NCBI GenBank assembly: GCA_003158585.1
Contig: PMKE01000121.1
Span: 16,829 to 64,757 of the forward strand
Length of the DNA: 47,929 bases
From: Alphaproteobacteria bacterium
GTDB taxonomy: Bacteria; Pseudomonadota; Alphaproteobacteria; Micropepsales; Micropepsaceae
Direction of reading: 5' to 3'
Part shown: positions 14,078-33,207 of the stretch, in pieces
Numbering within the stretch: the stretch's first letter is position 1
Layout: every line of letters starts with the position of its first letter
Made by a program: the position numbers and the translations under genes
The notes under the pieces: model-generated
What the model saw: the letters and a program-made list of their open reading frames with translations, nothing else
Told to the model about the DNA's origin: nothing
Databases searched by the model: none

Positions 14078-14167
14078 ACGACCACCTCGTCCGGTTGCTC
14101 AAAAGTACATATTGCCAAACATATAGTGACCAACGCCGACCTCATCTCAGATCGTCCCGACAACGGG

Positions 14168-14920
14168 TCAACGCGAAACCCGCACTTTCACGCTGCGCTG
14201 CCGCGGCTCCGTCTCCGCCTCGCTCTCGGCCTTCTCGATCAGGTTCAGTGCTTCCAGGATCAACTCGCGCATCGCATTCTCTGCACTTTCGGAATCGCCG
14301 GCCAGAATGGCGTCGGAAATCTTCTTGTGATCGGGCACACTGGCGCGGCGCACGCCCTTGAAGCGGTTCTGCATGCGGATGCTGAAGCGCAATGCGGTTT
14401 CTGTGACGCCGCTTAGCTGCGAATAGAACCTGTTGCCGGAGGCGCGCAGCACCGCGACGTGAAAGGCGATGTCCGAAGGAAGCGGATCGTCCTCACCTTC
14501 GTCCGCTGCCGCCATGCGCGCGATGGCGGCATTGATAGCGGCCTTCTTCTCCGGCGTGGCGACGACGGCCGCCAGCGCCGCAGCCTTCGGCTCAACCGCA
14601 AGACGCACCTGTGCGAATTCCCTCAACAACGAGAACGAAATCTTGCGCTCGAGCAGCCAGCGCAGCACGTCCGGGTCGAGCAGATTCCAGTTATCTTCCG
14701 GCTGGACCCAGGTTCCCTGCCGCGGCCGCGCGCTCAAAAGTCCCTTGGCGGTGAGCATCTTAACGGCTTCGCGCAGGACGCTGCGGCTGGCGCCGTATTG
14801 CTTGCATAGATCGGCTTCGATGGGGAACGGGTTCTTGACGGTGTAGGTGCCGGAGACGATGGCGATGCCGAGCGCCTGCACGATCCTGTAGGTCAGGTTC
14901 TGACCGTCCGCGCGTGCCAT
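14168..14920 (-). CDS. FadR-subfamily GntR transcriptional regulator (candidate repressor of the galactan locus)
   Basis: The 250-residue protein has an N-terminal winged helix-turn-helix (residues about 8-75; recognition region YGASRSVLREAVKMLTAKGLL). The C-terminal FCD ligand domain (about 95-230) keeps metal-ligand candidates D150, H154 and H198. The third family His near 220 appears replaced (MRELI). It lies between the lactonase gene (12 bp) and the dehydrogenase gene (90 bp), so it is probably co-transcribed with both. Related regulators sense sugar acids. I infer that it binds the ATTTAT-N3-ATAAAT sites of this locus; no direct evidence is visible. Confidence 0.88.
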   Translation of the reverse strand: MARADGQNLTYRIVQALGIAIVSGTYTVKNPFPIEADLCKQYGASRSVLREAVKMLTAKGLLSARPRQGTWVQPEDNWNLLDPDVLRWLLERKISFSLLREFAQVRLAVEPKAAALAAVVATPEKKAAINAAIARMAAADEGEDDPLPSDIAFHVAVLRASGNRFYSQLSGVTETALRFSIRMQNRFKGVRRASVPDHKKISDAILAGDSESAENAMRELILEALNLIEKAESEAETEPRQRSVKVRVSR

Positions 14921-14932
14921 CCCGCCGTTCCT

Positions 14933-15817
14933 TCAGATGCCAGCCACCCCGTCCCGCCGGAACCGGTGTTCCGGCAGGCCAGTTACATTCACATTGTACA
15001 CCAAGACATCCCCAGCGCCAGATTGGCGAGACAGCGCTTCCCCTCCAAGTCCCTGCCGCGCAGAGGTGACAAAAAGCAGGTCAAGTTGCGGACCTCCGAA
15101 GGCGACACAGGTCGGATGGCTAACCGGCACCTCCAGGACCCGGTCGATGCGACCGTCCGGCGCATAGCGCACGACGCACCCTGCTCCCCATCGGGCATTC
15201 CACACGAAGCCCTCTGCATCGACGGCCGACCCGTCGGGCGAGCCCCTGTCCGGTGTGGTCGCAAAGATGCTGCGGCCGGAGATGGTGCCTTGCACGGCCG
15301 AGAAGGCGTAGCGCCAGATCGTGTTCCAAGCGGAGTCCGCGAGATAGAACCAAGCGCCGTCGGGACTCCAACAGATGCCGTTCAAAATGGTCACGCCGCT
15401 TTCGCAGAGGCGGACGCTGCCGTCGAAACAGTAGAGATGTGCCTTGCCCGCCCCGGCCTCGGTCTCCGCCAAGCCGCCGACCCATAAGCGTCCCTGACGG
15501 TCCACCCGACCGTCGTTGAGACGAAATCCCGGCCGCAGCGACTCGGGCCGCGCCAGCCAGACGATGGAACCGTCATGGGGATCGTAGAGGGCAAAACCGC
15601 TCTCAAAGGCGGCGATCAGGCTGCGGCACCCCTCGACGAAGCCGAACGAGCAGAGCCGTTCCGGGGTGGAGAATTTCCGAAGCTCGCGGCGGCGCCAATC
15701 GAAGCGGTACAGCAGGCGCTCCTCGATGTCGGTCCACCACACCGATTGCGTCTCGCCGTCCCACAGAATGCACTCGCCGAGCGTATTGCCGGCCTTGATC
15801 GTTTCGACAGGTTCCAT
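14933..15817 (-). CDS. SMP-30/gluconolactonase-family sugar lactonase
   Basis: The 294-residue six-bladed propeller hydrolyses sugar lactones. Recognisable family segments are the metal-ligand Glu region LGECILWD near the N terminus, LNDGRVDRQGRLWVGG, ILNGICWSPDG with YLADS, and PDGSAVDAEGFVW. I chose ATG 15817 (MEPVETIKAGNTLGE); the long upstream frame to 16012 overlaps the symporter remnant and is not family-like. With the adjacent 1-dehydrogenase it should open galactono- or arabinono-lactone. It starts right after the symporter remnant. Confidence 0.87.
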   Translation of the reverse strand: MEPVETIKAGNTLGECILWDGETQSVWWTDIEERLLYRFDWRRRELRKFSTPERLCSFGFVEGCRSLIAAFESGFALYDPHDGSIVWLARPESLRPGFRLNDGRVDRQGRLWVGGLAETEAGAGKAHLYCFDGSVRLCESGVTILNGICWSPDGAWFYLADSAWNTIWRYAFSAVQGTISGRSIFATTPDRGSPDGSAVDAEGFVWNARWGAGCVVRYAPDGRIDRVLEVPVSHPTCVAFGGPQLDLLFVTSARQGLGGEALSRQSGAGDVLVYNVNVTGLPEHRFRRDGVAGI

Positions 15818-15819
15818 CC

Positions 15820-16230
15820 TCACCAGAATACCGCATAGAGCGCGACAAGCGTACCCACGATCGCGAGGGCGGCGAGGTTGAAGCCCCTGCCGGTCGAATA
15901 GTCGATGCCGCCGAGTTCGACGCCTTTCTGCGCCTCGGCGACGCTCTTGGCCGCCGGCGCGCGCTGAATGATGTACTGGTTGAACCCCCAGGTGGAGAAA
16001 TTCATGATCCACATGCCGCCGACGATCACCGATATGCCCGGCAGGTATTTATAGAAAGGATTGTCGGACTTCAGAATCATGTGGAAGTGATCCGGCGCCT
16101 TGGTCATCAGCATGTTGAAACCGTCGATCACCCCGGGCAGCCCGCTGCCGCCGGAAATGCGTTCAAGCACGATGACGACGATGACACGCGCGGGATCAAA
16201 TTCCGGACACAACGGAAGCTTACGAATCAC
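15820..16230 (-). pseudogene. Remnant of a sodium:solute symporter gene, internally deleted
   Basis: The 136-codon frame joins two distant pieces of a symporter like the intact one at 33208-34866. The first piece reads DHFHMILKSDNPFYKYLPG through NQYIIQRAPAAKSVAEAQKG, matching the middle of the intact protein. It then jumps straight to IDYSTGRGF...LVALYAVFW, which matches the extreme C terminus. The N-terminal half and about 250 residues in the middle are gone. The first 10 or so codons do not align. It shares the promoter region with the TonB receptor gene and precedes the lactonase by 2 bp. A functional peptide is very unlikely. Confidence 0.82.
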
Positions 16231-16429: not shown

Positions 16430-16457
16430 TTGACGGCGCCGTATTTATATTATAAAT
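16430..16457 (+). promoter_or_regulatory. Promoter with operator copy 1, TonB receptor / lactonase divergent region
   Basis: The perfect palindrome ATTTAT-ATT-ATAAAT lies at 16443-16457. A -35-like TTGACG is at 16430-16435, and TATAAA or TAAATA inside the palindrome can serve as -10. A repressor bound here would cover the -10 region. The region is shared with the leftward symporter-remnant/lactonase/GntR/dehydrogenase unit. Confidence 0.65.
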
Positions 16458-16513
16458 AGGATTATAAAATATCCGCTCTGCAACGGATGCGGATTTATGG
16501 GGAGGGCTATCTC

Positions 16514-19201
16514 GTGAAATCACTACAACGTTTGCTTCTGTGCAGCGCAAGCATCTTGGCGGTCGCAGTACCCGCCATCGCGCAAGAGAGCGTGGAGACG
16601 ATCACCGTTACCGGCATCCGCGAAAGTCTTCGCGATTCGCTGGTGATGAAGCAGAACTCGCCGCTCATCACCGATAACATTTCGACCAAGGATATCGGTC
16701 AGCTTCCCGACGTGACGATCGCGGAAGAGCTCAACCGCCTGCCGGGCGTAACCACGACCCGCGACCGCGGCAATGCGAGCCAGGCAGCGGTTCGCGGTTT
16801 GGGACCACGTCTGGTGTTCGGCCTCGTCAACGGCCGCGAAGTAGCATCGTCGGAACCGTCCCAGGACGTTCGCTGGGAAGTGTATCCGTCCGAAGTGCTG
16901 TCGGGCGCGCAAGTTTACAAGACGCAGGACGCAACTATCATCCCAGGCGGCATTGCGGCGACCATCGACATCCGCACAGTTTCGCCGTTGGACTACGAAG
17001 GCCCGTCGCTCAATCTGCGTGCCGGCCCCACCTACAATCAAGGGGGCAACGACTTCCCGCACTATAATACCTGGGGTCTTCGCGCGAGCGGCGCCTACAT
17101 CAGCCACTTGACGGACAATTTCGCGATCGCGTTGGCCGCAAGCTATCAGAAAGAAAAGAACGGCTATGCCGATCTTCGGTCTTGGGGCTGGAACACGACG
17201 GGTACCAGCCTCCCATCCGATCTGAACGGCGATGGCTATGACGAGTCCACCACCTGGGGCCTCAATTCGGATGTCGAGGAGATTCAGCAGGATCGCATGG
17301 CGGTCATGGGTGCCGCCGGATGGCGTCCGACCTCGAATCTCGAGATCAAATTCGACGCCCTCTATTCCTCCTACAACATCCACGAGAACCAGTTTCAGGG
17401 TTGGTTCGCAAACAACATTCTGGGCAACTGGGACGGGAGCAATGAGCCTCAATACAATTGCGCCGGCTGTTCCTACACGGTCGTCGATCACGTCATTGTC
17501 GCGGGGCATCTGCCTAACGAGAACCTGACTGCAAACTACTGGTGGGCTGGTCACAACATTGACGGGGTTAACGATCAAAGCATGCTCGGCCGCTACGGCG
17601 AACGGCATAATCTGCTCGTGACCGGCCTGAACTTCAATTTGACGGAGGGGTCGTGGGTCGCCAAGCTGGATCTGTCCCACTCGCAAGCCCAACGCAAGAA
17701 CCAATGGATCGGGCTCTATCTCGACACGCAATTTGCCAACGGCCTCGACTTCGACATAGGTGCCGGCCATGCGCCCAGCGCGTCGTTCCTTGGGCCCGTC
17801 GATCCCACCGACCCGGCAATCCAATCGACCGGCGGACGTACCGGCGAGATCGACACCTACCACGAGACCGATCATATCTCGGCGGTAGCCTTAGACGTTA
17901 CGCGTGCGATCGACGGCTCGTTCTTTACTGCTTTCGATGCCGGCATGCGCATGTCCGATCGCGCGAAGGGTAATCAGCAATGGGGGTACTACCCGGCAAC
18001 GGCCACAAACGCGGCTGGGTCTCTACCCGGTTTGGAAGAGTTCTCGATCAAGACAATCACTGCTCCGCCGCTGGTTTATGGCAACTTCGATGAGCTGTAT
18101 CCCTTGGTGTACCCAGGGGCACCTGCCTTAGCTGTGGCGGACAGCGCCGAACTCATGCTGGACAACTCGAAAGTTCACGAAAGTACCATCGAAGGCTATC
18201 TGAAGGTGGAATTCGCGGGCGATATCGGCAGCATACCGATGACCGGCGGCCTCGGCGTACGCGTCGCACATGTCGGTACGTCGAGCAGGGGTTATCAAAC
18301 CTTTGACAATCAGGCCACCTTCTCGCCGGTTATGCTCACGAACAGCTACACCGACGTGCTGCCCAGCCTGAATGCGACCTTCCACTTTACGGACGAGCAA
18401 CAGCTGCGTTTTGGCGCTTCGATTGCCGTATCGCGTCCGCCGCTGGATGCGCTGATCCCGGGCTTGAATTTGGGCACCAATCCTCCGGGATGCACCCCGT
18501 CTCCCTGTACGGGCGGCGGCGGCAACCCGTTCCTCAAGCCTTATAAGGCCAATCAACTCGATCTGTCTTACGAGTGGTACTTCCATGACGAATCGATGTT
18601 GGCCGCGGCCGTGTATTACAAGCACCTCCTGACCTACATCACGGCGCTTTCGACTCAGGAGGTTATCAACGGCCTCAACTACACCATAACCGGACAAGGC
18701 AACGGCAAGGGCGGCGACGTCGAAGGCGTGGAACTGACGTTCCAGACGCGCTTCTACTTCTTGCCGGAGTTCTTTAGCAACTTCGGTACCTATGCGAACT
18801 ACGCCTATGCAATGTCCAACATTCACGAGGTCTACCCCATAGCGTCAGCGTACGAGTCTCCGTTTACGATGGTCGGACTGACCAAGCATACGGCGGAGGT
18901 CGACCTTTACTACGACAACAGCGGCTTCGAAGCGCGGGTTGCTTACAAGTACCACAGTGCGACGACTGCCGCGCCGACCTGGGTCGGCACCGTTCTGAAG
19001 AAACAAGACGCTGAGGGATTGCTCGATGTCAGCGCCTCGTATCAGTGGAACGATCACATCGGTATGCGTCTGCAAGGCCGTAACCTCACCGGCACACCGA
19101 ATCGGTACTCGATGAATAACAACACCAATGAACTGGCGAACGACCAAGGCTACCAAGTGTTCGGCCGTTCCTTCCTGTTCGACATCTCTTACAAGAACTA
19201 A
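16514..19201 (+). CDS. TonB-dependent outer-membrane receptor, probable galactan oligosaccharide uptake
   Basis: The 895-residue beta-barrel receptor imports large substrates across the outer membrane using TonB energy. A signal peptide (VKSLQRLLLCSASILAVAVP, cleavage after AIA) is followed by a TonB-box-like ETITVTG, a plug domain (LPDVTIAEELNRLPGVTTT, AAVRGLGPRLVFGLVNGR, PSEVLSGAQVYKTQ) and a long barrel ending LFDISYKN. I chose GTG 16514, with GGGGAGGG about 7 bp upstream, rather than ATG 16487, which would put that site inside the gene and bury the signal peptide. Two galactanase genes follow, so galactan fragments are the likely cargo. This is inferred from context. Confidence 0.9.
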   Translation: MKSLQRLLLCSASILAVAVPAIAQESVETITVTGIRESLRDSLVMKQNSPLITDNISTKDIGQLPDVTIAEELNRLPGVTTTRDRGNASQAAVRGLGPRLVFGLVNGREVASSEPSQDVRWEVYPSEVLSGAQVYKTQDATIIPGGIAATIDIRTVSPLDYEGPSLNLRAGPTYNQGGNDFPHYNTWGLRASGAYISHLTDNFAIALAASYQKEKNGYADLRSWGWNTTGTSLPSDLNGDGYDESTTWGLNSDVEEIQQDRMAVMGAAGWRPTSNLEIKFDALYSSYNIHENQFQGWFANNILGNWDGSNEPQYNCAGCSYTVVDHVIVAGHLPNENLTANYWWAGHNIDGVNDQSMLGRYGERHNLLVTGLNFNLTEGSWVAKLDLSHSQAQRKNQWIGLYLDTQFANGLDFDIGAGHAPSASFLGPVDPTDPAIQSTGGRTGEIDTYHETDHISAVALDVTRAIDGSFFTAFDAGMRMSDRAKGNQQWGYYPATATNAAGSLPGLEEFSIKTITAPPLVYGNFDELYPLVYPGAPALAVADSAELMLDNSKVHESTIEGYLKVEFAGDIGSIPMTGGLGVRVAHVGTSSRGYQTFDNQATFSPVMLTNSYTDVLPSLNATFHFTDEQQLRFGASIAVSRPPLDALIPGLNLGTNPPGCTPSPCTGGGGNPFLKPYKANQLDLSYEWYFHDESMLAAAVYYKHLLTYITALSTQEVINGLNYTITGQGNGKGGDVEGVELTFQTRFYFLPEFFSNFGTYANYAYAMSNIHEVYPIASAYESPFTMVGLTKHTAEVDLYYDNSGFEARVAYKYHSATTAAPTWVGTVLKKQDAEGLLDVSASYQWNDHIGMRLQGRNLTGTPNRYSMNNNTNELANDQGYQVFGRSFLFDISYKN

Positions 19202-19325: not shown

Positions 19326-19353
19326 TTGACTGCCCGTCATTTATCATATAAAT
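19326..19353 (+). promoter_or_regulatory. Promoter with operator copy 2, upstream of galactanase 1
   Basis: The perfect palindrome ATTTAT-CAT-ATAAAT lies at 19339-19353. A TTGACT -35 is at 19326-19331, and the -10 (TATAAA or TAAATC) lies within the palindrome. The galactanase start is 74 bp downstream. Confidence 0.7.
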
Positions 19354-19426: not shown

Positions 19427-20830
19427 GTGACAGCCATTCGTTTCACGCTCCTTTGCGGCGTGGTAGCCGCGCTCTTCGCGCAACCCGTTGCGGCGCGCGA
19501 CTTGTACTTCGGCGCCGATCTTTCCTTCGCCAACGAGATGGACGACTGCGGCGCGGTCTATCGCGAGAACGGCGCGCCCAAGAACCTCTATGCCCTGTTC
19601 AAGGAGCACGGCGCCAATGTCGCCCGCATTCGCATCTGGAACGCGGGCAACCCCACGAAATACAGCAATCTCGCGGATGTCGAACGCAGCTTCAAGCGCG
19701 CCAAGGCGCTGGGCATGCTGACCCTGCTCGACTTCCACTATTCGGACTGGTGGGCGGACGGCGGCAAGCAGATCATTCCCGCGGCCTGGGCAAAGATCAA
19801 AGATCCGAAGAAGCTGGCGCAGGTTCTCTATCGCTATACCTACGATACGCTGATGGCGCTCGACAGGGCCGGCGTGATGCCGGACATGGTGCAGCCCGGC
19901 AATGAGATCAACCACGAAATCCTCGACAAGGGACGCTGGAAAACCGGGCCCATCAACTGGAAGCGCAACGCGCTGCTGCTGAATGCGGCGATCAAGGCGA
20001 TCCGCGATGCGGGCCGCAAGGCAGGCACCCATCCCAAGGTGATGATCCAGATCGCCCAGCCGGAATACAACCTGCCTTGGTACGAGGCGGCGACCAGGGC
20101 GGGCGTCACCGACTTCGACATGATCGGCCTCAGCTACTACCCGAAATGGTCCACCAATTCGTTCCGCGGGCTGGGCCGCACCATCAACCTGCTGCGCAAC
20201 CGCTATCCCGGCAAAGAGGTGCTGGTGGTGGAAACGGCCTATCCCTGGACGCTGGGCGGCAGCGCCGCGGCCAGCGGGCTTGCCAGGGACAACCAGACAC
20301 CCGGCTATCCGGCGACGCCGGAAGGCCAGAAGCGCTTCCTCGTCGATCTCAGCCAGGCCGTGATTGCCAATGGCGGCCTAGGCGTGTTCACCTGGGCACC
20401 CGACTGGGTGCCCGCCCTGTGCCGCGGCAACGCCGATCGGAACGTGGACTGGCCGTCGATGACCTTCTTCGACGATAAGGGCGAGGTGCTTCCCGGCATC
20501 GACTATATGCGGGAGAAGTACGTGATGCCCGTGGAAGTGACCTTCCGCTTCAGCGGCGTGAAGCCGAAGAAAGGCCAGGTCTTCCGGCTGTGGGGCGACC
20601 TCTTCGGTGACCCGGATTTCACCTCGTTTCCGCTGCGCCGAGTGAATAACGAGCTGGTCTACAACACGACGCTGATGCCGGGCAGCCAGGTTCACTTCCA
20701 GGTGTTCGGCGACAAGGCGATGCAGAAGCCGCTCATCGCCGGAAAGAAACTGCTGGAAGGCGTCGTGCCCGAAACCGTGGGCAACACCGACACTGTTTTC
20801 GATTTCGACTTGCGCAAGCCGGTCGACTAG
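19427..20830 (+). CDS. Secreted endo-beta-1,4-galactanase, GH53 (copy 1)
   Basis: The 467-residue enzyme cleaves beta-1,4-galactan. A signal peptide ends near VAA (residue 23). The GH53 barrel follows: FGADLSFANEMDDCG, LDFHYSDWWAD, acid/base E160 in QPGNEINHE, SYYPKWS, and nucleophile E269 in VVETAYPW. After about residue 370 there is an extra domain of roughly 95 residues (VEVTFRFSGVKP, LWGDLFGD, MPGSQVHFQVFG) shared with copy 2. The GTG start has AGGGAGG 7 bp upstream. The next gene lies 80 bp on with no promoter-operator between them, so it is probably co-transcribed. Confidence 0.93.
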   Translation: MTAIRFTLLCGVVAALFAQPVAARDLYFGADLSFANEMDDCGAVYRENGAPKNLYALFKEHGANVARIRIWNAGNPTKYSNLADVERSFKRAKALGMLTLLDFHYSDWWADGGKQIIPAAWAKIKDPKKLAQVLYRYTYDTLMALDRAGVMPDMVQPGNEINHEILDKGRWKTGPINWKRNALLLNAAIKAIRDAGRKAGTHPKVMIQIAQPEYNLPWYEAATRAGVTDFDMIGLSYYPKWSTNSFRGLGRTINLLRNRYPGKEVLVVETAYPWTLGGSAAASGLARDNQTPGYPATPEGQKRFLVDLSQAVIANGGLGVFTWAPDWVPALCRGNADRNVDWPSMTFFDDKGEVLPGIDYMREKYVMPVEVTFRFSGVKPKKGQVFRLWGDLFGDPDFTSFPLRRVNNELVYNTTLMPGSQVHFQVFGDKAMQKPLIAGKKLLEGVVPETVGNTDTVFDFDLRKPVD

Positions 20831-20910: not shown

Positions 20911-22746
20911 ATGGACAAATTCATCCTTAGTGTTGTCCACAGACCGGAACTGATGCCGGAATACATCAACACCGATGCTCAGGCCGGCAAGACTGAAGAA
21001 CTCGGAGGCACGGAGGTGGTCGGCGAGTCGCTGGACATCTTCCGCCTGCAGCAGGACATCGCGCACGCCAACGGGATCAAATGTACGATCCAGATGACCT
21101 ACGCCTCGCTGTACAACGACGAGGCCATCCAGCTTGCCAAGGATTACCACGAAAAATACGGCGACGAGATCGCGCACACTTTCCTCGGCGTCCAGTGCGA
21201 CCGCTTCCGCGAGACTTACGGCTCCAAGGAACTGGCAATGTGGCTGTTCCCTTGGGATCTGAAAGTGCGGGTCGTGCGTGACTCGTTTGAGCGGTTCAAG
21301 GAAGTCTTTGGATTCTATCCGACCTCGACCGGCTCTTATTTCATGGATGCCGAACTCATCAACTTCATCAAAGCCGAGTACCCGATGGTGAAAACCGCCG
21401 TGGCTGCCTGTTTTGAGGAAGGTCCGAAGGTGTTCCGGCATACCAACAACACCTGGTACACGCTTCTTGATGGCGGCCCGTGGACGGCCTGGGTGCCGTC
21501 CAAAGCGTGCTCTCACGCCATCGCGGAAAACGCCGACGATGATTCCGGCATCGTAGCCGTGCCGCACCTGTCGCGCGATCTGCTCGGCGTCATGGACAAC
21601 CCCGGCGACATGTTCGGCACGCATCCGCAAAACATCATCCGAGGCCTGGCCTACGAGGACGACCGGCTGCCCTTCATGTACAACCTGGTGGACCAGTATC
21701 AGGCCATCAAGCGCTACAACAAAGGCTACTCCTATAATCTCGTCTATGTCGGCCCGGGCTGGATGGGCAAGGCCGGCCGGTGGGAGTGCCCCTACCGGAT
21801 TCTCAAGAAATCCTACGAGGATTTCATGGCCTATTACGGGCAGCTGAAACGCCAGGGCAAGGTCACGGACATGACCATGACCGAGTTCGCCGACTGGTAC
21901 CGCGCAAACAAGGCCGTCAACGAGCCGATCTGCGCCCTCTGGAAGGACACGATCTTCGGCACCAAGAACCAGTGCTTCTGGTATGCCGATTCGAAGTTCC
22001 GCATCCAAATCGATCTCAAGCTCGGCGGGGCAATTACCGATATCCGTCCTTACGCGTCCAAGCTGAAGCGGCCCTGCGGCGCCGGCACATCGGCCAATCA
22101 AGACGCTTCATATCCGTTCATCGTGCAGTCCCGCTATCGCGGTGGCCCCTTCACGCACTATGCCGGCGAAGGCGCCATCAAGAGCGCCAAGCTGCGGTTT
22201 GGCGGCGAAGAAGTGGATTTGAGCGCCTGCCGGTCGACGGGCCGGTATGAGGAGGGCCCCGGCTGGCGCAAACTGATCGTGCGTCCGGTGACCGTCGAGT
22301 TTCAGCACCTGAAGGTGCAGGTCGAGACGTCGTACACGTTCCACGAAAACCAAGGGACCATCGACATCGGCCGCAAGATCGTCGGTCTCAGCGATCCCTC
22401 CGCCAAGGTTGAAGTGGACGAGTTCATCACCGCCTGTTGGGGAACCCGGGAATATCCGGAGGACTTGACCGGCTGCACCCTGGCCGTGATCGACCGCAAC
22501 GGTACACGTAATGCCATCGACTATGCTTACCGCTGCCGTGAGCACGCTGCCGCCGATGCCGCCGCCGTCGAAGCGGTCATTCCGATGGTACAAACCCGCA
22601 TCCGGATGACTCCGAAATCGGGCCCGTGCAAGGGCTACTACGAAGAGGGATACTCCTTCGCTCCGAACCTGAAGATCGGCTTATGCCGCGAACTCGGGCT
22701 CGACGAGGAACTCGTGACCGTCTTCGCCATCGAACGCGCAAACTGA
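20911..22746 (+). CDS. Large cytosolic protein of unknown function, possible polysaccharide-deacetylase/GH57-like barrel
   Basis: The 611-residue protein has no signal peptide or membrane segment. The first ~350 residues look like an alpha/beta barrel: an N-terminal strand FILSVVHRPELMPEYIN, then GFYPTSTGSYFMDAELINFI, which resembles the search-and-match segments of NodB/GH57-type folds, and a Trp/Tyr-rich stretch. The last ~200 residues alternate hydrophobic strands, suggesting a beta-sandwich. It may correspond to the DUF3863/DUF3864 families, from memory and unverified. I chose ATG 20911; the upstream frame is basic and unlike the rest. Placed between two galactanases with a symporter, a role in processing an imported glycan is plausible but unproven. 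Confidence 0.6.
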   Translation: MDKFILSVVHRPELMPEYINTDAQAGKTEELGGTEVVGESLDIFRLQQDIAHANGIKCTIQMTYASLYNDEAIQLAKDYHEKYGDEIAHTFLGVQCDRFRETYGSKELAMWLFPWDLKVRVVRDSFERFKEVFGFYPTSTGSYFMDAELINFIKAEYPMVKTAVAACFEEGPKVFRHTNNTWYTLLDGGPWTAWVPSKACSHAIAENADDDSGIVAVPHLSRDLLGVMDNPGDMFGTHPQNIIRGLAYEDDRLPFMYNLVDQYQAIKRYNKGYSYNLVYVGPGWMGKAGRWECPYRILKKSYEDFMAYYGQLKRQGKVTDMTMTEFADWYRANKAVNEPICALWKDTIFGTKNQCFWYADSKFRIQIDLKLGGAITDIRPYASKLKRPCGAGTSANQDASYPFIVQSRYRGGPFTHYAGEGAIKSAKLRFGGEEVDLSACRSTGRYEEGPGWRKLIVRPVTVEFQHLKVQVETSYTFHENQGTIDIGRKIVGLSDPSAKVEVDEFITACWGTREYPEDLTGCTLAVIDRNGTRNAIDYAYRCREHAAADAAAVEAVIPMVQTRIRMTPKSGPCKGYYEEGYSFAPNLKIGLCRELGLDEELVTVFAIERAN

Positions 22747-22756
22747 GAAAACCGAC

Positions 22757-23029
22757 ATGGCCCAAGGTAAAACCGGAAAGATCAACTACCGTTGCCCGAT
22801 GTGTCTGTTCCGGACCATCGACTACGATCTTCTCTACGACCGTGACGCGGATCAATTCTACTGCCGCCGCTGTAATTGGGAGGGTAACGAGATGGCGATT
22901 CTCTCGTTGTACCGCGTGTACAAGCAGCAATATCCCGACATGCTGAAGCGCTGGACCGTGGAGGAAATCCTCGCCAAAAACGAGGAGGCCGACACACCCG
23001 GGACTCCGGCCGGGAAAGGGCCGTCCTGA
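22757..23029 (+). CDS. Small zinc-ribbon protein, unknown function
   Basis: The 90-residue cytosolic protein has two CxxC knuckles 20 residues apart: C13/C16 (YRCPMCLF) and C36/C39 (FYCRRCNWEG). They form a probable treble-clef or zinc-ribbon site. A helical middle (EMAILSLYRVYKQQYPDMLK) and a flexible, Pro-rich end follow. It starts 10 bp after the large unknown gene and precedes the GPH symporter by 100 bp, so it is part of the cassette. It could be a DNA-binding or protein-partner module. I do not recognise the family. Confidence 0.75.
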   Translation: MAQGKTGKINYRCPMCLFRTIDYDLLYDRDADQFYCRRCNWEGNEMAILSLYRVYKQQYPDMLKRWTVEEILAKNEEADTPGTPAGKGPS

Positions 23030-23129
23030 CTGATGTACCTCCAGCCACAAGCTGGTGCCTTGGCGGTGCTGTATTCTCGTATCCGCCGGTATCAAGAGTT
23101 TCAGATCACCAACCGCCGCAGGAAACGTC

Positions 23130-24656
23130 ATGGGTAAATCCACCGAACTGGGTCGTACGATCGGCAAGAAGCGCGACAAGCTGACGATCAGGGAGAAGTT
23201 CTCCGTCGGCACGGGCGGCATAGCCGTGTCGCTCGGCAATCAGAGTGTCCGGACTACCGGACAGGGCGTTCTGAACATGATTCTGCACATCAACGCCTTT
23301 TGGGTCGGCCTTGTGCTTGCGGTTTCTCTGTTCTGGGACGCCATAATCGATCCCGTCGTAGGCAACATTTCCGACAATTTCCGCTCGCGGTACGGCCGCC
23401 GCCGCCCGTTTATTGTGGTCGGCGCAATAGCGATGGGCTTGACCTTTGCCTGCATATGGATGGTTCCGCTGCAGTGGAGCGACGCGGGCAAGCTGGGTTG
23501 GTTCATCGTCACGAGCCTGGTGTTCTATACGGCCTACTCCACCTTCTTGGTGCCGTACATCGGCCTGACCTACGAAATGACCCCGGACTATGACGAACGC
23601 ACTTCGGTCCAGGGCTATGTGACCTTCTGGAACCGGCTCGGCGAGATGTCCTACATGGGGCTGATCCCACTGTCCCTGACTTACATCGCCTGGAAATACG
23701 GCTACGCGAACACCGATCATCTTACCTCCCCGGAAAAGATGGAGGGCATCCGGACCGTCGCGGCGGTTTATGGTTTTTTCGGCATGACCCTGTTCGGATT
23801 GCTCCCGGCCTTCTTCGGCCGTGAGCGCCTCTATGCGCTGACCGTCAAGGAGCAACGCGGCAAGAAGACTTCGTTCTGGAAGTCCGCCAAGCTCGCGCTG
23901 CAGAACAAAGCATGCGTCTACTTGTGCATCTTTACCATCTTGACGAACATTGCCGGCGTGTTTGCAAGCAACATGGATTGGTACCTGCTGATCTACTACT
24001 TGTCCGACGGCAATATCGCGGTGGGGACGCAATGGAAACTCATCGTGACCATCGGGTACGCCGCGGTGGGCATCTTGGGCATTCCGCTCGTCGTGTGGCT
24101 GACCGCCAAGATGAGCAAGGTCCAGGGTCTGCAGTTCATCTACACCATGATGATAGTGAACTCGGTACTGCGCTGGTTCGTGTACCAGCCCGGGCGCTTT
24201 AGTGAAGCCCTCCACTGGGGCAGTTATACACAATTCGCGCATTCCCTCGCTCTGATCGGCAAATCGTTCATCTGGCTCGATCCGCTTACCGGAGGCGTGT
24301 TCTGGATCGGCATCGGTGTGTTGGGGCAAGCGATGACGGCCGACATCTGCGACGAAGATGAGTTGAAGAACGGTCAGCGCCGCGAAGGTATGTTCGGCGC
24401 TGTCTACCAGTGGGCAACGAAGGCATCCTTTGCGATCGGCTTCGTCCTGGTCGGCACATTCCTGAGTTCCATCGGCTTCGACCCCGCCCTCAATTCCCAG
24501 ACGCCGCATACCTATCTCAGCATGCGGGTTGCCATGTGCCTCGGTGCCGGCATTCCGTCCCTGCTGTGTTTCCTTCTTTTGAAATACTATCCGCTGACCA
24601 GACGGATATCCGAGGAGAACCGGAAAAAACTGGAAGCGCTGCGCGGCGAGGTTTGA
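23130..24656 (+). CDS. GPH-family (MelB-like) sugar:cation symporter
   Basis: The 508-residue permease has about 12 membrane segments. The family signature near the N terminus is visible: WDAIIDPVVGNISDNFRSRYGRRRPFI, which contains the conserved Asp pair of MelB cation sites. Also seen are YTAYSTFLVPYIGLTYEMTPDYDERT and a C-terminal MTADICDEDELKNGQRREGMFGA. I chose ATG 23130 with AGGAAA upstream; the longer frame adds a non-family leader. Family members move galactosides, pentosides or hexuronides with Na+ or H+. Here it probably imports the substrate or product of the cassette's large protein. Confidence 0.88.
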   Translation: MGKSTELGRTIGKKRDKLTIREKFSVGTGGIAVSLGNQSVRTTGQGVLNMILHINAFWVGLVLAVSLFWDAIIDPVVGNISDNFRSRYGRRRPFIVVGAIAMGLTFACIWMVPLQWSDAGKLGWFIVTSLVFYTAYSTFLVPYIGLTYEMTPDYDERTSVQGYVTFWNRLGEMSYMGLIPLSLTYIAWKYGYANTDHLTSPEKMEGIRTVAAVYGFFGMTLFGLLPAFFGRERLYALTVKEQRGKKTSFWKSAKLALQNKACVYLCIFTILTNIAGVFASNMDWYLLIYYLSDGNIAVGTQWKLIVTIGYAAVGILGIPLVVWLTAKMSKVQGLQFIYTMMIVNSVLRWFVYQPGRFSEALHWGSYTQFAHSLALIGKSFIWLDPLTGGVFWIGIGVLGQAMTADICDEDELKNGQRREGMFGAVYQWATKASFAIGFVLVGTFLSSIGFDPALNSQTPHTYLSMRVAMCLGAGIPSLLCFLLLKYYPLTRRISEENRKKLEALRGEV

Positions 24657-24797: not shown

Positions 24798-24827
24798 TTG
24801 ACCCAGCCGAGCATTTATCATATAAAT
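24798..24827 (+). promoter_or_regulatory. Promoter with operator copy 3, upstream of galactanase 2
   Basis: TTGACC (24798-24803), a 17-bp spacer and TATAAA (24821-24826) make a near-ideal sigma-70 promoter. The palindrome ATTTAT-CAT-ATAAAT (24813-24827) overlaps its -10. This is the clearest case for steric repression in the locus. Confidence 0.78.
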
Positions 24828-24883: not shown

Positions 24884-26287
24884 ATGATGGGATCGCGGCG
24901 CGCTTGGTTGCTTGCCGGGGTTTTAACCCTCTTCGGCACACTGCCCGCAGGAGCCGCCGACTTCGTGTTCGGCGCCGACCTTTCCTTCGCCAATGAGATG
25001 GACGATTGCGGCGCGGTCTTCAAGGACGACGGCAAGGCGGGAGACGTCTATGCCATCATGAAGGCGCACGGCACCAATCTGGTGCGGCTGCGCCTTTGGA
25101 ACAACCCAAGCTGGACCCAGTATAGCACGCTCGACGACGTGAAGCGTTCCATCGCCCGCGCCAAGGCGCAAGGCATGCAGGTTCTGCTCGATTTCCATTA
25201 TTCCGACGACTGGGCCGATCCCAGCAAGCAGGTTATTCCGGCGGCATGGGCGAACATCAAGGACGACGACGCGCTGGCCAAGGCAGTTTATCAATTCACC
25301 GCCGACACGCTGAAGCAGCTTGCGGCGGCCGGGCTTTCGCCGGACTACGTGCAAGTCGGCAACGAGGTTAATCACGATGTGCTGACGCTCACCGCCACAG
25401 AAGCGCTGACGAATTGGCCGCGCAACGCCAAGCTGCTCAACGCCGGGATAAGAGCGGTGCGCGACACCAATCCCAAGATCAAGGTGATGCTGCACATCGC
25501 GCAGCCGGAAAACATCGAGCCGTGGTTCGAACAAGCGGCAAGCGCGGGCTTGACCGATTTCGATATCATCGGCATCAGCTATTATCCGAAATGGTCGAAG
25601 TACACGTTGGCGGGGCTCGGCGCCCTCATCAACCGGTTGCGCTACAGGTACCCCAAGGCCGAGATTTGGGTGGCTGAAACCTCCTATGCTTGGACTTTGT
25701 CCACCGCCGACAATATGAATAATCTTCTGGACGAAGGTTCCGCCTTGCCCAGCTATCGCTTAACCCAGGAAGGTCAAAAGCAGTTTCTAGTCGATATGGC
25801 GCAGACGATCATTTCGAACGGCGGCAGCGGTCTCGTTTATTGGGCGCCCGATCGGGTTTCTACCAAATGCCGGACACGCTGGGGCCAAGGGTCCGATTGG
25901 GAAAACGCTACGCTGTTCGACTTCGACGGCAACGCGCTTCCCGCCATCGACTACGCGCGCCAGACCTACAAGCAGCAGGTGCACGTGACGTTCAGGTTCC
26001 ACGGCCTGACGCCGCCGCCGGATCAGGCGTTCTATCTGTGGGGCGATTTTCTTGGGTCAAAGACGTTTGCGGTGCGGTTGCCTGCCGATGGCGTGTTCAC
26101 CACCACCATGATGCCGGGCGCCAAAATCCGCTTCCAGGTGTTCGACAACCTGCAACTGCACGCCAAGCTGCTGGCGGGCGGCAAGGTGGTGGACGGCTTC
26201 GCGACCGAAACCGTCCCCTCCGGCGATGCGACCTTCGACTACGTGCTCACGCCACCGCCGGACGCAGTGCCACCGCCTTCGCACTGA
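24884..26287 (+). CDS. Secreted endo-beta-1,4-galactanase, GH53 (copy 2)
   Basis: The 467-residue paralogue of copy 1 has a signal peptide (cleavage near AGA, residue 24). The barrel motifs are FGADLSFANEMDDCG, LDFHYSDDWAD, acid/base E161 in QVGNEVNHD, SYYPKWS and nucleophile E265 in VAETSYAW. The C-terminal accessory domain (VHVTFRFHGLTP, LWGDFLGS, MPGAKIRFQVFD) repeats that of copy 1, and the end is Pro-rich. GGGAGG lies about 7 bp before the ATG. Its last 41 bp overlap the 3' end of the convergent beta-galactosidase gene. Confidence 0.93.
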   Translation: MMGSRRAWLLAGVLTLFGTLPAGAADFVFGADLSFANEMDDCGAVFKDDGKAGDVYAIMKAHGTNLVRLRLWNNPSWTQYSTLDDVKRSIARAKAQGMQVLLDFHYSDDWADPSKQVIPAAWANIKDDDALAKAVYQFTADTLKQLAAAGLSPDYVQVGNEVNHDVLTLTATEALTNWPRNAKLLNAGIRAVRDTNPKIKVMLHIAQPENIEPWFEQAASAGLTDFDIIGISYYPKWSKYTLAGLGALINRLRYRYPKAEIWVAETSYAWTLSTADNMNNLLDEGSALPSYRLTQEGQKQFLVDMAQTIISNGGSGLVYWAPDRVSTKCRTRWGQGSDWENATLFDFDGNALPAIDYARQTYKQQVHVTFRFHGLTPPPDQAFYLWGDFLGSKTFAVRLPADGVFTTTMMPGAKIRFQVFDNLQLHAKLLAGGKVVDGFATETVPSGDATFDYVLTPPPDAVPPPSH

Positions 26288-28763
26288 TCGAGACGGAGGC
26301 GGATTGGAGTCCGGGTGAGGCCGCCTCGATGCGGATATCTCCCGCCTGCTTGCCCGCCTGAACGATGGCGCTGGCGAGGCCGTTGAACGCGGCGCGTTCC
26401 GATGCCTTGTCGGCCTCGTGGCTACTGGGATCGCCGTTGCCGACGCCGATCAGAGCACCCGGTCCCGACACGCGGAAGCTCACCTGATTGCCCGCCGTGG
26501 GCACGATGCGGCCTTGCGCATCGGCAATCGACACCGTGACGACCGTCACGTCTTCGCCGTCCGCGTCGATGACTACCCGGTCGGGTTTCAGCAGAATCTG
26601 CGCCGGTGCACCCGTGGTTTCGCGCTTGTCGGTCGCCACGAGTTTGCCGTCTTTGTAGCCGCGCGCCTCGATCATGCCCGGCTCGAACGTCACGTCCCAT
26701 TCGACATGACCGTACGGCTCCATCTTGCGCACACCTTGGCTGCGGCCATTCAGAAACAACTCGATGCTGTCGAGGTTGGAATAGCACCAGACGTTGACCG
26801 TTTGCCCCGGCTGCCAGTTCCAGTGCGGGAAGAGGTGCAGCACAGGCTCCTTGCCCCACCACGCCTGGTAATAGAAATAATTGTCTTTCGGAAAGCCGCA
26901 GCTGTCCATAATGCCGAATTGCGATGACACGTTCGGCCAGCGGTAGAACGGCGTCGGCTCGCCGCGATAGTCGAAGCCGGTCCACACGAAGCCGCCGGTG
27001 AAAAAGGCGCGCGGCATCGCCACCTGCATCCAAGCTTCCGCCGTGGAGGCCCAAAACGGAGCCTCCAAATCATAGGCCACGCAATAGCCGCGGGCCGCGT
27101 CGCGCACATAGACGCCGCGCGTGCCGACGGTGGCGCCGGCCTCGGTGCTTACGACGGGCATTTTCGGATCACGCATGTGAAAATCCGGAATCTTGGCGGC
27201 GTGGTAGTTGCAGCCCATCACGTCGAGCGCGGGCGTGATGCCGATACCCCATGCGTCGGGATTGTCGATCGCCGCGGTGATCGGGCGCGTGGGATCGAGC
27301 TCGTTGCACAACCGCCGCATCGAAAATGCGATGCGGGCGCCGCGCTCGGTGCCTTGCTGCTGCTGTTCCTCGTTGCCAATCGACCAGGCGATGACGCATG
27401 GATGATTGCGGTCGCGGCGGATCATGCGCGTGAGGTCGGAAATGCATTCCTCGTCCGACGACATGCGGCGCGTTTCGTCGATCACCAGCATGCCGAGCCG
27501 GTCGCAGGCGTCGAGCAACTCGGGCGTCGGCGGATTGTGCGAGGTGCGGTAGGCATTGCAGCCCATCTCCTTCAACCGCTCGATGCGCCAGTACTGCAGG
27601 CGGTCCGGCAGCGCCGCGCCGACGCCGGCATGATCCTGGTGGTTGCAGGTACCGTTCAGCTTGACGGACTTGCCATTCAGGAAGAAGCCCTTTTCGGGAT
27701 CGAAATGGCTGGTGCGGATGCCGAACGCGGTCACCGCGTCGTCCACCACCTTGCCGCCCGCCTGCACTTCGGTCAGCACGCGATAGAGAAGCGGAGTCTC
27801 GACCGACCATAGCGCCGGCTTGCCGAGGACGGCGTGCTGGACGAGCGTGCGCTTTTCGTGCGTGCCCATCGTGAGCTGCGGCGTCTCGAGCGTGGCGACC
27901 GCGCGGCCCTGAGGATCGAACACCGTCGAAACCACGCGGCAGGTGCGTACCGCGAGGGACTCGTTGACCAGTTCGGTCGCGATGCTCAGCGATGCCGAAT
28001 TGCCTTGCAGCGTCGTCTTTACCCAAGTACCCCATTGGGGCACGTGCAGCGGGTCCGTCTTCACCAGCCAGACATGGCGGTAGATGCCTGCGCCTTCGTA
28101 GAACCAGCCTTCGCCGAGGGTCGCGTCCACACGTACCGTCAGCACGTTCTTGCCGCCGTAATTGACGAAGTCGCTGACGTCGACGCGGAACGGCGCATAG
28201 CCGCTCGGGTTGCCGCCGACGATGTAGCCGTTGAACATCACGATGCAGTCGCGGAACACGCCGTCGAACTCCAGCGACAGGCGCCGGCCGAAGTCGGAGG
28301 CGGGCAGATCGAAGACGCGCCGGTACCAGCCGATACTGGTCTCGGGATATTCGCGGCCGAGCGGCTTGAAGCCGTGCGCAGCGCGCGGGTCTTCGTCCGC
28401 CGCCGGCGGATTGGCGCTGGGCACGAAAGGCAGCTCGACCGCCCAGTCGTGCGGCAGGTTCACGTTCTGCCAGTCCTTGTCGTCGAAATCGGCATCCGCG
28501 GCCAAGGCGACGCCCTTCCCCGCCTTGGCAAAAGTGTTCTGTTCGAGGCCAAAGCCGAAATCCTTGGCCGGATCGCAGGCGTGACCGAGATGAAATCGCC
28601 AGCCGAAATCGAGCAAAAGCCGCTCGCGAACCTTGGGCTCGATGGAGGCGACGGGCATGTGCGCGCGCGGTTTGCGCCGAACCGGCACTGCGTGGGCAGG
28701 CATCGTCGCACCCGCCGTGGCGACGGCTCCCGACTTGATCACATCGCGTCTCGTCATTGACAT
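26247..28763 (-). CDS. Tat-exported beta-galactosidase-type GH2 enzyme
   Basis: The 838-residue glycoside hydrolase family 2 protein starts with a twin-arginine signal (MSMTRRDVIKSGAVATAG, then MPAHA), so it folds in the cytoplasm and is exported. The GH2 sugar-binding jelly roll contains LDFGWRFHLG and LPHDWAVELPF; the barrel carries the acid/base Glu in WSIGNEEQ and a nucleophile Glu in VSTEAGATVG. A long C-terminal beta-rich part with YKDGKLVATD and SFRVSGPG follows. I chose ATG 28763, 5 bp after AGGAG. It ends the galT-galK-galE operon, 8 bp after galE. Galactose release from galacto-oligosaccharides is likely from context; other GH2 activities are possible. Confidence 0.88.
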   Translation of the reverse strand: MSMTRRDVIKSGAVATAGATMPAHAVPVRRKPRAHMPVASIEPKVRERLLLDFGWRFHLGHACDPAKDFGFGLEQNTFAKAGKGVALAADADFDDKDWQNVNLPHDWAVELPFVPSANPPAADEDPRAAHGFKPLGREYPETSIGWYRRVFDLPASDFGRRLSLEFDGVFRDCIVMFNGYIVGGNPSGYAPFRVDVSDFVNYGGKNVLTVRVDATLGEGWFYEGAGIYRHVWLVKTDPLHVPQWGTWVKTTLQGNSASLSIATELVNESLAVRTCRVVSTVFDPQGRAVATLETPQLTMGTHEKRTLVQHAVLGKPALWSVETPLLYRVLTEVQAGGKVVDDAVTAFGIRTSHFDPEKGFFLNGKSVKLNGTCNHQDHAGVGAALPDRLQYWRIERLKEMGCNAYRTSHNPPTPELLDACDRLGMLVIDETRRMSSDEECISDLTRMIRRDRNHPCVIAWSIGNEEQQQQGTERGARIAFSMRRLCNELDPTRPITAAIDNPDAWGIGITPALDVMGCNYHAAKIPDFHMRDPKMPVVSTEAGATVGTRGVYVRDAARGYCVAYDLEAPFWASTAEAWMQVAMPRAFFTGGFVWTGFDYRGEPTPFYRWPNVSSQFGIMDSCGFPKDNYFYYQAWWGKEPVLHLFPHWNWQPGQTVNVWCYSNLDSIELFLNGRSQGVRKMEPYGHVEWDVTFEPGMIEARGYKDGKLVATDKRETTGAPAQILLKPDRVVIDADGEDVTVVTVSIADAQGRIVPTAGNQVSFRVSGPGALIGVGNGDPSSHEADKASERAAFNGLASAIVQAGKQAGDIRIEAASPGLQSASVSISAKAVALRPAVA

Positions 28764-28771
28764 GCGATCTC

Positions 28772-29818
28772 CTATGTCCGAGCGGACTTCGCAAGGATCG
28801 TTTCGGTGTAAGTACGCGAGCGGTGCCAAGCGGCCGCGGAGCCGATCATCTGCTCGATTCCCCTTTGCGGCCGCCAGCCGAGAACCTGCTGCGCTTTGCG
28901 GCTGTCCGCAATCAGAACCGCCGGATCGCCCGCCCGGCGCGGCTCCGTTCCAGGCGCAAAATCGGAGCGGTCGAGTACTCTCCTTGCGGCTGCGACGATC
29001 TCGCTCACGGAAAAGCCTGAGCCGCTACCCAGGTTGAAGATATTCGTCCCGCCGCCTTCGCGCAGATAGCGCAATGCCCGCAGGTGTGCGTCGGCGAGGT
29101 CCGCGACGTGGATATAGTCCCGCACCGCCGTGCCGTCGCACGTCGGATAGTCGGTGCCGAACACAGTGAAGCCCTTTTTCAGCCCCAGGGCCTCAAGCAC
29201 CTCCGCTCGCGTCCCGATCAAAGGCAGGACGAGACGCGGAATGAGATGGGTTTCGGGAAAATGCGCTTCGCCCAAACCGGCTTTCGGCTGCGCGCCCGCG
29301 ACGTTGAAATATCGCAGTGCCACCGAGTTCACGTCTGCGACGGTGCGCAGATAGGTTTCCGCCTTGAGTTTCGACTGGCCATAGGGATTGATCGGCCGCG
29401 TCGGTTGGGTTTCGAGGATTGGCGTCTCGGCCGCCTCGCCGTAGACGGCGGCGGTGCTGGAAAAAACGACGTGCCTGACGCCCTTTTCGGCGAGAACATC
29501 GAAGAAGATTTTCGCCTTGTCGCGGTTGTTGGTGAAATAGGCCTCGGGCTTCTGCACGGACTCGCCCACTTCGATGAAGGCGGCGAAATGCAAGGCCGCG
29601 ACCGGCCGGAACTCGTTGCAGACCGCGCGCACGAAATCCGCGTCGCCCACATCGCCTTTGCGGAAGGAGCCCGCCACGGCCCACAGATTGCCCCTGACGA
29701 GGCTGTCGATCACCACCGGCGCATAACCCGCGCCTTTCAACGCATGAGCGACATGGCTACCGATATACCCGGCGCCGCCCGATACGAGAACATTGCCCAG
29801 TTCAGGCTGCGTATTCAT
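28772..29818 (-). CDS. galE: UDP-glucose 4-epimerase GalE
   Basis: The 348-residue short-chain-type epimerase interconverts UDP-galactose and UDP-glucose. The NAD-binding motif is SGGAGYIGSHVA, the catalytic Ser region is VVFSSTAAVYG, and YGQSK supplies the YxxxK pair. The substrate loops ALRYFNVAGA and RDYIHVADLADAH are present. The start overlaps galK by 17 bp. It completes the Leloir set with galT and galK on one transcript. Confidence 0.93.
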   Translation of the reverse strand: MNTQPELGNVLVSGGAGYIGSHVAHALKGAGYAPVVIDSLVRGNLWAVAGSFRKGDVGDADFVRAVCNEFRPVAALHFAAFIEVGESVQKPEAYFTNNRDKAKIFFDVLAEKGVRHVVFSSTAAVYGEAAETPILETQPTRPINPYGQSKLKAETYLRTVADVNSVALRYFNVAGAQPKAGLGEAHFPETHLIPRLVLPLIGTRAEVLEALGLKKGFTVFGTDYPTCDGTAVRDYIHVADLADAHLRALRYLREGGGTNIFNLGSGSGFSVSEIVAAARRVLDRSDFAPGTEPRRAGDPAVLIADSRKAQQVLGWRPQRGIEQMIGSAAAWHRSRTYTETILAKSART

Positions 29819-30884
29819 TCTCGGTGTTTTTCAGCGCGTAGGTCGAGATCAGTTTGCTATTCGGGTTTTCCCTGGAGACGTACGACCACCAGGCGGCCAC
29901 CTTCCGGCGCGGCACCAGGGCGATGATGGCGCCGCCGAAGCCGCCGCCGACCAGCCTTGCCCCGCGCACGCCGAAACGTATCGAGGATTCCACCAGCGCG
30001 TCGATTTCCGGGATCGAACATTCGAAATCGTCGCGTTGCGAGACGTGGCTGGCGGCGATCAGGTCCGCCTGTTTTTCACTGTCGCCGCGCTCCAACGCCG
30101 CCACGAATTCGAGGACGCGCAGATTCTCGGTGATGACATGGCGGGCGCGCTTGGCGACATTCTCGGGCAGTGCCGATAGCCGCGGCAAATCCTTGTAGCC
30201 GAGTTCACAGAGCGTGCCGACGCCCAGCTTGTCGCGTGCCTCGGTGCATTCGGCGACGCGCTGCCTGTACCCCGAGCCTTTGGCAAGGTCGTGCTTCTTG
30301 CCGCAATCGACCAGCATCAAGACGATGTTCGAAGGCAGCGGCACGTTACGGTGTTTTAGTGTCTTAGTATCCAACAGGAGGGCCAGTCCGGGACGGCCCA
30401 CCGATGAGGCGAACTGATCCATCTTCCCGCAAGGCACGCCGACGTAATCATGCTCGGACTCATAGGCCATGAGGGCGATTTCTTCGTCGTTCCAACGCGT
30501 GCCGAAGAGCCCTTTCACGGCCCGCACCACGGCGACGCACAGCGCGGCGGAACTGGAGATGCCGCTGCCGATGGGAACATCGCTCTTCACGGCGACCGTC
30601 AGCGCGGGCAACTCGACGCGCGTTGCCGCAATGCGCAGGCAGCCGACCACATAATCCGTCCAATGGCCGCGGGGCGTTTCCATCAACAGACGCTGGCAAG
30701 GCGGCTCGTCAAAATTCTCGCTCGAGATCGTCACGCGCCCGGCCGTGCCCGTAACCTTCTCCAGCTTGATCGTGGTGTGAAACGGCAAAGGCGTCGGCAG
30801 CACGTGTCCCGCGTTGGTGGCGTAATCGGTGTGTTCGCCGATGATGTTGGCGCGCGCGGGGGCCTTTGCCGAAAAGCTGTTCAT
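29802..30884 (-). CDS. galK: Galactokinase GalK
   Basis: The 360-residue GHMP kinase phosphorylates galactose at C1. The signature reads ARANIIGEHTDY, slightly changed from the usual GRVNLIGEHTDYN. The ATP loop is PIGSGISSSAAL and motif 3 is GGGFGGAIIAL. GKMDQFAS carries the catalytic Asp. It overlaps galT by 4 bp and galE by 17 bp. Confidence 0.93.
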   Translation of the reverse strand: MNSFSAKAPARANIIGEHTDYATNAGHVLPTPLPFHTTIKLEKVTGTAGRVTISSENFDEPPCQRLLMETPRGHWTDYVVGCLRIAATRVELPALTVAVKSDVPIGSGISSSAALCVAVVRAVKGLFGTRWNDEEIALMAYESEHDYVGVPCGKMDQFASSVGRPGLALLLDTKTLKHRNVPLPSNIVLMLVDCGKKHDLAKGSGYRQRVAECTEARDKLGVGTLCELGYKDLPRLSALPENVAKRARHVITENLRVLEFVAALERGDSEKQADLIAASHVSQRDDFECSIPEIDALVESSIRFGVRGARLVGGGFGGAIIALVPRRKVAAWWSYVSRENPNSKLISTYALKNTENEYAA

Positions 30885-31948: not shown

Positions 31949-32110
31949 CGGAAATCGGCCCTGCCCGCCCTCATTATTTGGCGCCTTACCGGCGCACGTG
32001 TACGATTCGGTTTACTCTCTACGAGGCGGCGGTGACTGGGCAATAGCACATTTGCTGCCTGTCATATGACCGATTCGAACCTCCCCACCGTATATCAGCC
32101 GGCGTTTTGT

Positions 32111-32141
32111 ATTTATCATATAAATCAGCTATTTTTGTCAA
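32111..32141 (-). promoter_or_regulatory. Promoter with operator copy 4, galT operon / aldo-keto reductase divergent region
   Basis: The perfect palindrome ATTTAT-CAT-ATAAAT is at 32111-32125. Reading leftward, a consensus TTGACA (complement of 32136-32141) precedes it, and the -10 (TATGAT or TGATAA) falls inside it. It sits 163 bp from galT and 117 bp from the reductase start, so it may control both. Confidence 0.7.
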
Positions 32142-32241
32142 GCTTTGTGGCCGCGTTTTTCGGCCACAGGAGCCTAAAAACCTCATATTTCCAGACCCTT
32201 CGCGCGCTAGACTGGGGCGCCGGATTCGCGGGAGCGCAGAC

Positions 32242-33201: not shown

Positions 33202-33207
33202 ATCGGC

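Follow-up and report, generated by a model that had tools for sequence, protein, structure and literature searches.

Bacterial loci for the use of type I galactan combine endo-beta-1,4-galactanases of family GH53 with GH42, GH2 or GH35 enzymes, transport genes and the Leloir genes for galactose. Although the catalog of enzymes acting on pectic side chains is extensive, we found a protein, linked to GH53 in every close relative found, for which neither Pfam nor NCBIfam holds a model. It is encoded in a 47,929-nucleotide stretch of the genome of a Micropepsaceae bacterium (Alphaproteobacteria; contig PMKE01000121.1; hereafter "the window"). There, a gene for a 611-residue protein (the large gene; 20911-22746, + strand), a gene for a 90-residue protein with two CxxC motifs (the ribbon gene; 22757-23029, +) and a symporter gene follow one another between two GH53 genes, an order given in a preliminary description of this DNA and corroborated by the reading frames and the Pfam matches. 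The locus resembles known type I galactan loci in its GH53, GH2, transport and Leloir genes; it differs in the large and ribbon genes, which are not mentioned in the titles and abstract openings examined for such loci. On balance, we favor the proposal that the large and ribbon proteins are the two subunits of a cytosolic carbohydrate-active enzyme whose family is unclassified and whose substrates in this organism are beta-1,4-galacto-oligosaccharides. A glycosidase or transglycosidase is the most likely type of activity.

The conserved unit is a two-gene module, large plus ribbon, and not a three-gene cassette. The two genes are paired in all 20 places where they were found. At 18 separate loci the spacing was measured, with start codons set by rule; the ribbon gene is adjacent to the large gene on the same strand in each, the two overlapping by 1-34 bases in 15 loci and standing 10-80 bases apart in the other three (the gap in the window is 10). 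A nineteenth pairing (G257:C12) was taken from coordinates, and the twentieth (L021) is a natural fusion, with the ribbon at the C-terminus of the large protein. In a reverse search of 288 genomes with a ribbon profile, 11 strong places in nine genomes were all beside a large gene; two more matches, both weak (E = 5e-4 and 7e-4), were not. Given the overlapping frames and the fusion, the two proteins probably form a complex.

The 90-residue protein carries the motifs C-P-x-C and C-x-x-C, and its four cysteines (C13, C16, C36 and C39) are strictly conserved in all 18 ribbons compared, which bears out its earlier designation as a zinc ribbon. Its structural model (mean predicted local distance difference test score, pLDDT, 71.9) places a helix after the ribbon. 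A fold search returned no match with E <= 0.001, and we therefore limit the assignment to a zinc ribbon with a following helix. To our knowledge, a zinc ribbon as the obligate partner of a carbohydrate-active enzyme would be unusual.

The family falls into two clades with different surroundings. The close clade comprises seven places (the window, L002, L003, L004, L005, L040 and L041), and it is linked to GH53 in seven of seven loci, the GH53 of L005 being fragmentary. That gene (L005:11970-12433), beside the pair, looks broken, with matches in two frames over only about a third of the length. Further neighbors are LacI, galK and galT in L005; GH42, LacI, galK, galE and galT in L075; AraC and GH35 in L004; and LacI in L002, from Pontiella. 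In L003 there are two GH53 genes with genes that appear by eye to be transport-like; when checked against Pfam, one permease-like frame had no match and a binding-protein-like frame matched only DUF3502. Several clostridial GH53 proteins lack a signal sequence, as judged by eye. This suggests that galactan fragments are handled in the cytosol, which is the apparent site of the pair as well. The distant clade comprises 13 places (L010-L021 and G257:C12), and GH53 is present in none of 12 stretches from it (L063-L074; the 3-kb contig of L013 was not counted). The neighbors checked there, 10 proteins from four of the 12 stretches, included sulfatases, GH2, GH28, GH123, an SSF symporter and a GPH symporter; two of the 10 had no match. 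A link to glycans is thus general in the family, and a link to galactan is confined to one clade.

One could imagine that the pair serves as a sensor or regulator, the large protein binding galactan fragments while the ribbon contacts another protein or nucleic acid. Many nucleic-acid-binding proteins have a zinc ribbon, and this one weakly matches TFIIB-type and primase ribbons. We nonetheless consider such a role very unlikely, because the loci already contain ordinary regulators (GntR in the window; LacI in L002, L005 and L075; AraC in L004) and the barrel of the large subunit resembles that of an enzyme and bears invariant acidic residues.

The preliminary description held that the large protein belongs to no clear family, and our searches concur: neither Pfam nor NCBIfam matches it at E <= 1, PHROGs gives nothing at E <= 0.01, and its nearest chains in the PDB by sequence are at chance level (E about 1). 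Two scans of viral contigs found no relative, and there was no match among plasmids. Strong similarity to a characterized enzyme, which would have spoken against a new family, was likewise not found in these searches. The earlier suggestions of a possible new enzyme family and of a galactan context are supported. The protein has no signal sequence by eye, and an AlphaFold2 model, built from five sequences and of low confidence, suggests a NodB/GH57-like barrel (residues about 1-340) and a mutarotase-like beta-sandwich (about 374-611). Both points are consistent with the cytosolic barrel previously envisaged. Residues 1-348 of the model match the NodB-type barrels 3qbu (Z = 16.4 over 260 residues), 3cl6 (Z = 16.2) and 3rxz (Z = 15.2), the three matches spanning 243-260 residues. 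For residues 374-611, the matches are mutarotase-like sandwiches (Z = 13-14) and the sandwich parts of GH94-type phosphorylases. These matches suggest a barrel-plus-sandwich architecture, and they are not proof of function. Rows for GH38 and GH2 in the VIA fold list, which covers only the families present in it, were not used, their root-mean-square deviation (rmsd) being about 20; the GH38 row, Man38C, has Z = 11.8 but an rmsd of 20.6. GH38 enzymes have a zinc-dependent barrel and C-terminal sandwich domains.

Enzymes of GH57 combine a (beta/alpha)7 barrel with a C-terminal sandwich, and a Glu at the fourth strand is their catalytic nucleophile. The top Foldseek match of our model is one of them, the 4-alpha-glucanotransferase of Thermococcus litoralis (1k1x), with E = 3.9e-8; in that enzyme, as the low-confidence model suggests for the large protein, a barrel is followed by a mutarotase-like sandwich in a single chain. 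In an alignment of 19 close- and distant-clade sequences with 29 from a wider, more remote set (tier C, below; matches selected as long enough), E86, D146 and C167 are invariant (48/48 each) and D377 is present in 45 of 48. E86 opens the third strand of the model and D146 comes after the fourth, positions that we take to be those used by GH57, insofar as the strand register of a low-confidence model allows. We propose E86 and D146 as catalytic candidates. The same register would put an Asp, D146, where the GH57 nucleophile is a Glu, and the obligate zinc-ribbon partner and the galactan context also set the large protein apart from GH57. Membership in that family by sequence was rejected for want of any profile or profile-profile match: PF03065 has no match at E <= 1 in the window protein or in any of the 19 family members.

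A second structure of interest is 3lm3, the DUF3863 protein BDI_3119 of Parabacteroides distasonis, annotated as a "putative glycoside hydrolase/deacetylase". It shares a D-G-x-P ... P-S ... P-A stretch with the large protein, and it matches residues 1-417 of the low-confidence model with Z = 14.3 and an rmsd of 4.1 over 258 aligned residues. Membership in DUF3863 (PF12979) was also rejected, since a match at E <= 1 is seen for only two of the 19 sequences, and the better of them (E = 0.01) scores 15.1 bits where the cut-off is 27; a profile search of the PDB reached 3lm3 with E = 0.15. In 59 genomes, neither a search for DUF3863 genes nor its controls gave a match, so that this search carries no weight. 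We know of no function for 3lm3, and no paper on it was found among the titles and abstract openings of the literature on DUF3863, DUF3864 and 3LM3.

The best barrel matches raise the possibility of a carbohydrate deacetylase or esterase, in which the barrel would deacylate imported fragments of galactan, removing acetyl groups or others of the acyl type in the manner of NodB/CE4 enzymes. The modeled barrel fold is shared with the NodB/CE4 deacetylases and PuuE allantoinase (Z = 15-16), and both 3qbu and 3rxz are annotated as deacetylases. Further, the gene after GH53 in L075 encodes a membrane protein of the TraX family (12182-12973; Pfam E = 5.9e-22), and L076 has a similar-looking frame in the corresponding place after GH53 (8835-9635, by eye). 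CE4 enzymes, however, hold their metal with an Asp-His-His triad that includes an H-x3-H motif. No conserved His pair of that type occurs in the 19-sequence alignment, and none of the columns conserved in the family corresponds to the CE4 metal motifs (Asp-Asp and His-x3-His). The large protein also differs from these enzymes in its additional C-terminal sandwich and its zinc-ribbon partner, and the allantoinase 3cl6 demonstrates that the same fold can serve other chemistry. We therefore regard deacetylation as quite unlikely.

The sandwich raises a different possibility, namely that the pair is a cytosolic phosphorylase, an epimerase or isomerase, or another non-hydrolytic enzyme acting on galactose or its oligosaccharides, with the sandwich binding sugar as it does in mutarotases. 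The matches to mutarotases and to the sandwich parts of GH94-type phosphorylases are in keeping with this idea, as are the galK and galT genes near the pair in L005 and L075. We judge it unlikely, because GH94-type phosphorylases have an alpha/alpha barrel, unlike our model, and because the retention of galactokinase in the loci implies that free galactose is still made.

The glycosidase or transglycosidase that we prefer would operate as follows. Secreted GH53 enzymes would cut beta-1,4-galactan, and the resulting oligosaccharides would enter by way of a TonB-dependent receptor and then the GPH symporter. The enzyme pair would process them in the cytosol, and galactose would pass to GalK, GalT and GalE. 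The ribbon would be an obligate partner translated with the large subunit, probably for folding, assembly or completion of the substrate site, and it could be a structural or gating subunit.

Several facts weigh against this proposal. The model of the large protein is poor (mean pLDDT 54.3, with residues 163-298 and 333-423 below 50), and its alignment with 1k1x has an rmsd of 16-19. There is no link to GH57 at the sequence level, the hhalign probability being 0.2-0.7 percent against two GH57 alignments that hold some wrong frames. The NodB-fold glycosidase families GH57, GH38 and GH119 act on alpha links. The absence of GH53 from all 12 distant-clade stretches implies that galactan is not the substrate throughout the family. 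Finally, several loci already have beta-galactosidases (GH2 in the window, GH42 in L075 and GH35 in L004), such that simple exo-beta-galactosidase activity would in part duplicate theirs. Given these resident enzymes, the pair may act on what they leave behind, such as the reducing end, ends capped with arabinosyl groups, or long chains.

The barrel of the large protein extends to a wider unclassified set of proteins, tier C (loci L022-L062). These are homologous to it over the barrel with an hhalign probability of 99.8, a figure from a single comparison and not from a database search. Seven tier C members were scanned, and none has a Pfam family of its own above the cut-off; one member (L022) is joined to an AP_endonuc_2-like barrel. 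All 29 aligned tier C sequences share the equivalents of E86 and D146 and the motif Q-x-G-Q-E-N. We tentatively entertain the broader idea, in which we place somewhat less confidence than in the proposal for this organism, that the pair founds a new glycoside hydrolase family with two-subunit catalysis. This family would unite a NodB/GH57-like barrel-sandwich with a zinc ribbon whose reading frame in most cases overlaps that of its partner, and one of its clades would have beta-1,4-galactan as its specialty. Behind it would stand a larger barrel superfamily, also unclassified, of which it is the visible branch and which also reaches Clostridia and Verrucomicrobiota/Kiritimatiellota. For the tier C superfamily, whose scanned members match no family of their own, the pair would offer a first clue to function. 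The family and its obligate zinc-ribbon partner appear to be new with respect to Pfam, NCBIfam and the sequences of the PDB, while an assignment in CAZy or UniProt is possible; the fold and the pathway are of known kinds. No paper on the pair was found among the titles and abstract openings of the literature on DUF3863/DUF3864, 3LM3, GH53 with a zinc ribbon, and new families, and the Pontiella paper (PMC7356697), consulted by passage, gave no occurrence of GH53 or of "zinc".

Relatives of the pair occur in distant bacteria. One scan of a genome collection yielded full-length relatives in Pontiella sulfatireligans (74% identity) and in three clostridial metagenome-assembled genomes (50-55%), all four with a ribbon homolog directly after the large gene and GH53 close by. 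In profile searches of genome sets that were samples and overlapped one another, strong relatives (over 250 bits) were present at 14 places, counting the Pontiella ortholog, in 12 of the 387 genomes from Pontiella's phylum, and in three of 295 genomes of one clostridial order, and one of 398 genomes of the phylum of L004, namely L004 itself. Weak matches (tier C) occurred in 22 further genomes of Pontiella's phylum and 19 further genomes of the clostridial order. In the window's own family and class, the only strong relative was in the source genome (one of 96 and one of 289 genomes, respectively). Within the close clade, the window protein and that of Pontiella form a clade with 100/100 support. 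Because the other 95 family and 288 class genomes lack the pair, horizontal acquisition is the simplest reading, and the pair was probably gained in this way, with Pontiella harboring the nearest relative. The source genome is in 143 contigs (92.7% complete, 1.2% contamination), and this fragmentation carries a residual risk that the contig is misbinned; the whole locus does sit on a single contig.

The symporter (23130-24656, +; 508 amino acids) most likely starts at ATG 23130 rather than at GTG 23055. It matches MFS_2 well above the cut-off (E = 2.9e-63; 214.3 bits versus 27), and it falls under the cut-off of the gph model TIGR00792 (E = 5.7e-42; 143.9 bits versus 231). The preliminary description had grouped it with the large and ribbon genes in a three-gene cassette, and had named absence of the trio from other genomes as grounds for doubt. 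The large-ribbon part of that cassette is conserved elsewhere; the symporter is not conserved with it. No homolog was found in the stretches around the pair in the other six close-clade relatives, and the source genome itself has a 77% paralog on another contig, near a second gene that looks by eye like GH2. We have therefore rejected the trio as a conserved unit. Among the best matches listed for the other 68 genomes of the genus, identity is 33% or less in most, the top one has 28%, and fragments reach 41%. The symporter looks like a local recruit, and it may also have been acquired, but, judging from the pair's surroundings in other genomes, not together with it. The region of its paralog (L103:3376-11159; G000:C50) holds, by eye, a GH2-like gene similar to that of the window and two repeat-rich secreted proteins that resemble each other.

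The large gene is read here from its ATG; its mechanically called open reading frame begins at GTG 20851. The flanking galactanases, GH53a (19427-20830, +) and GH53b (24884-26287, +), match Pfam GH53 with E = 1.3e-92 and 4.1e-108, are 49.7% identical to each other, and have signal-like N-termini by eye. An operator-like palindrome, ATTTATNNTATAAAT, precedes the TonB-dependent receptor gene, GH53a and GH53b; further copies lie in the interval that separates galT from a divergently oriented aldo/keto reductase gene and, in mismatched form, at 36727. There are 10 strand-matches at five places, with 0.05 expected. The copy before GH53a (19339-19353) reads ATTTATCATATAAAT and that before GH53b (24813-24827) is identical; the site before the receptor gene (16443-16457) reads ATTTATATTATAAAT, and the site between galT (-) and the aldo/keto reductase gene (+) occupies 32111-32125, none of the four being assigned a strand. 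In a search of the window, the palindrome was absent directly before the large, ribbon and symporter genes, in agreement with the earlier remark that they have no operator of their own. Since it does not recur from GH53a through the symporter, these three genes are most simply part of a transcription unit headed by GH53a. They thus appear to share that unit under a palindromic operator, and the copy at 19339-19353 likely controls GH53a, large, ribbon and symporter together. A GntR/FCD regulator (14171-14920) is a candidate and may bind the palindrome. An earlier impression of looser codon choice in the cassette was not upheld: with the remainder of the window as reference, codon adaptation is 0.737 for the large gene, 0.641 for the ribbon gene and 0.659 for the symporter gene, all within the span of 0.54-0.78 for 23 compared reading frames, which were chosen by eye and some of which may be wrong. 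An anomaly of codon use or composition was rejected, with nothing unusual in G+C content at third codon positions or in window-based codon adaptation.

The TonB-dependent receptor (16487-19201, +; Pfam and NCBIfam, TIGR01782 with E = 1.6e-171) is likely the outer-membrane importer of the locus. Genes for GH2, galE, galK and galT (26247-31948, -) would provide galactose release and Leloir use. ATTTATCATATAAAT and its variants at 16443, 19339, 24813, 32111 and 36727 outline a galactan/galactose regulon within the window. In the Pontiella locus, an ATPase-like gene (by eye; L002:12293-13759) lies between the ribbon gene and the second GH53. The window itself (13148-16012 and 26247-36669) places galE, galK and galT alongside genes for Gfo/Idh and aldo/keto reductases, an SMP-30 lactonase, an IlvD/Edd dehydratase and an SSF symporter, and these latter genes fit an oxidative route for galactose.

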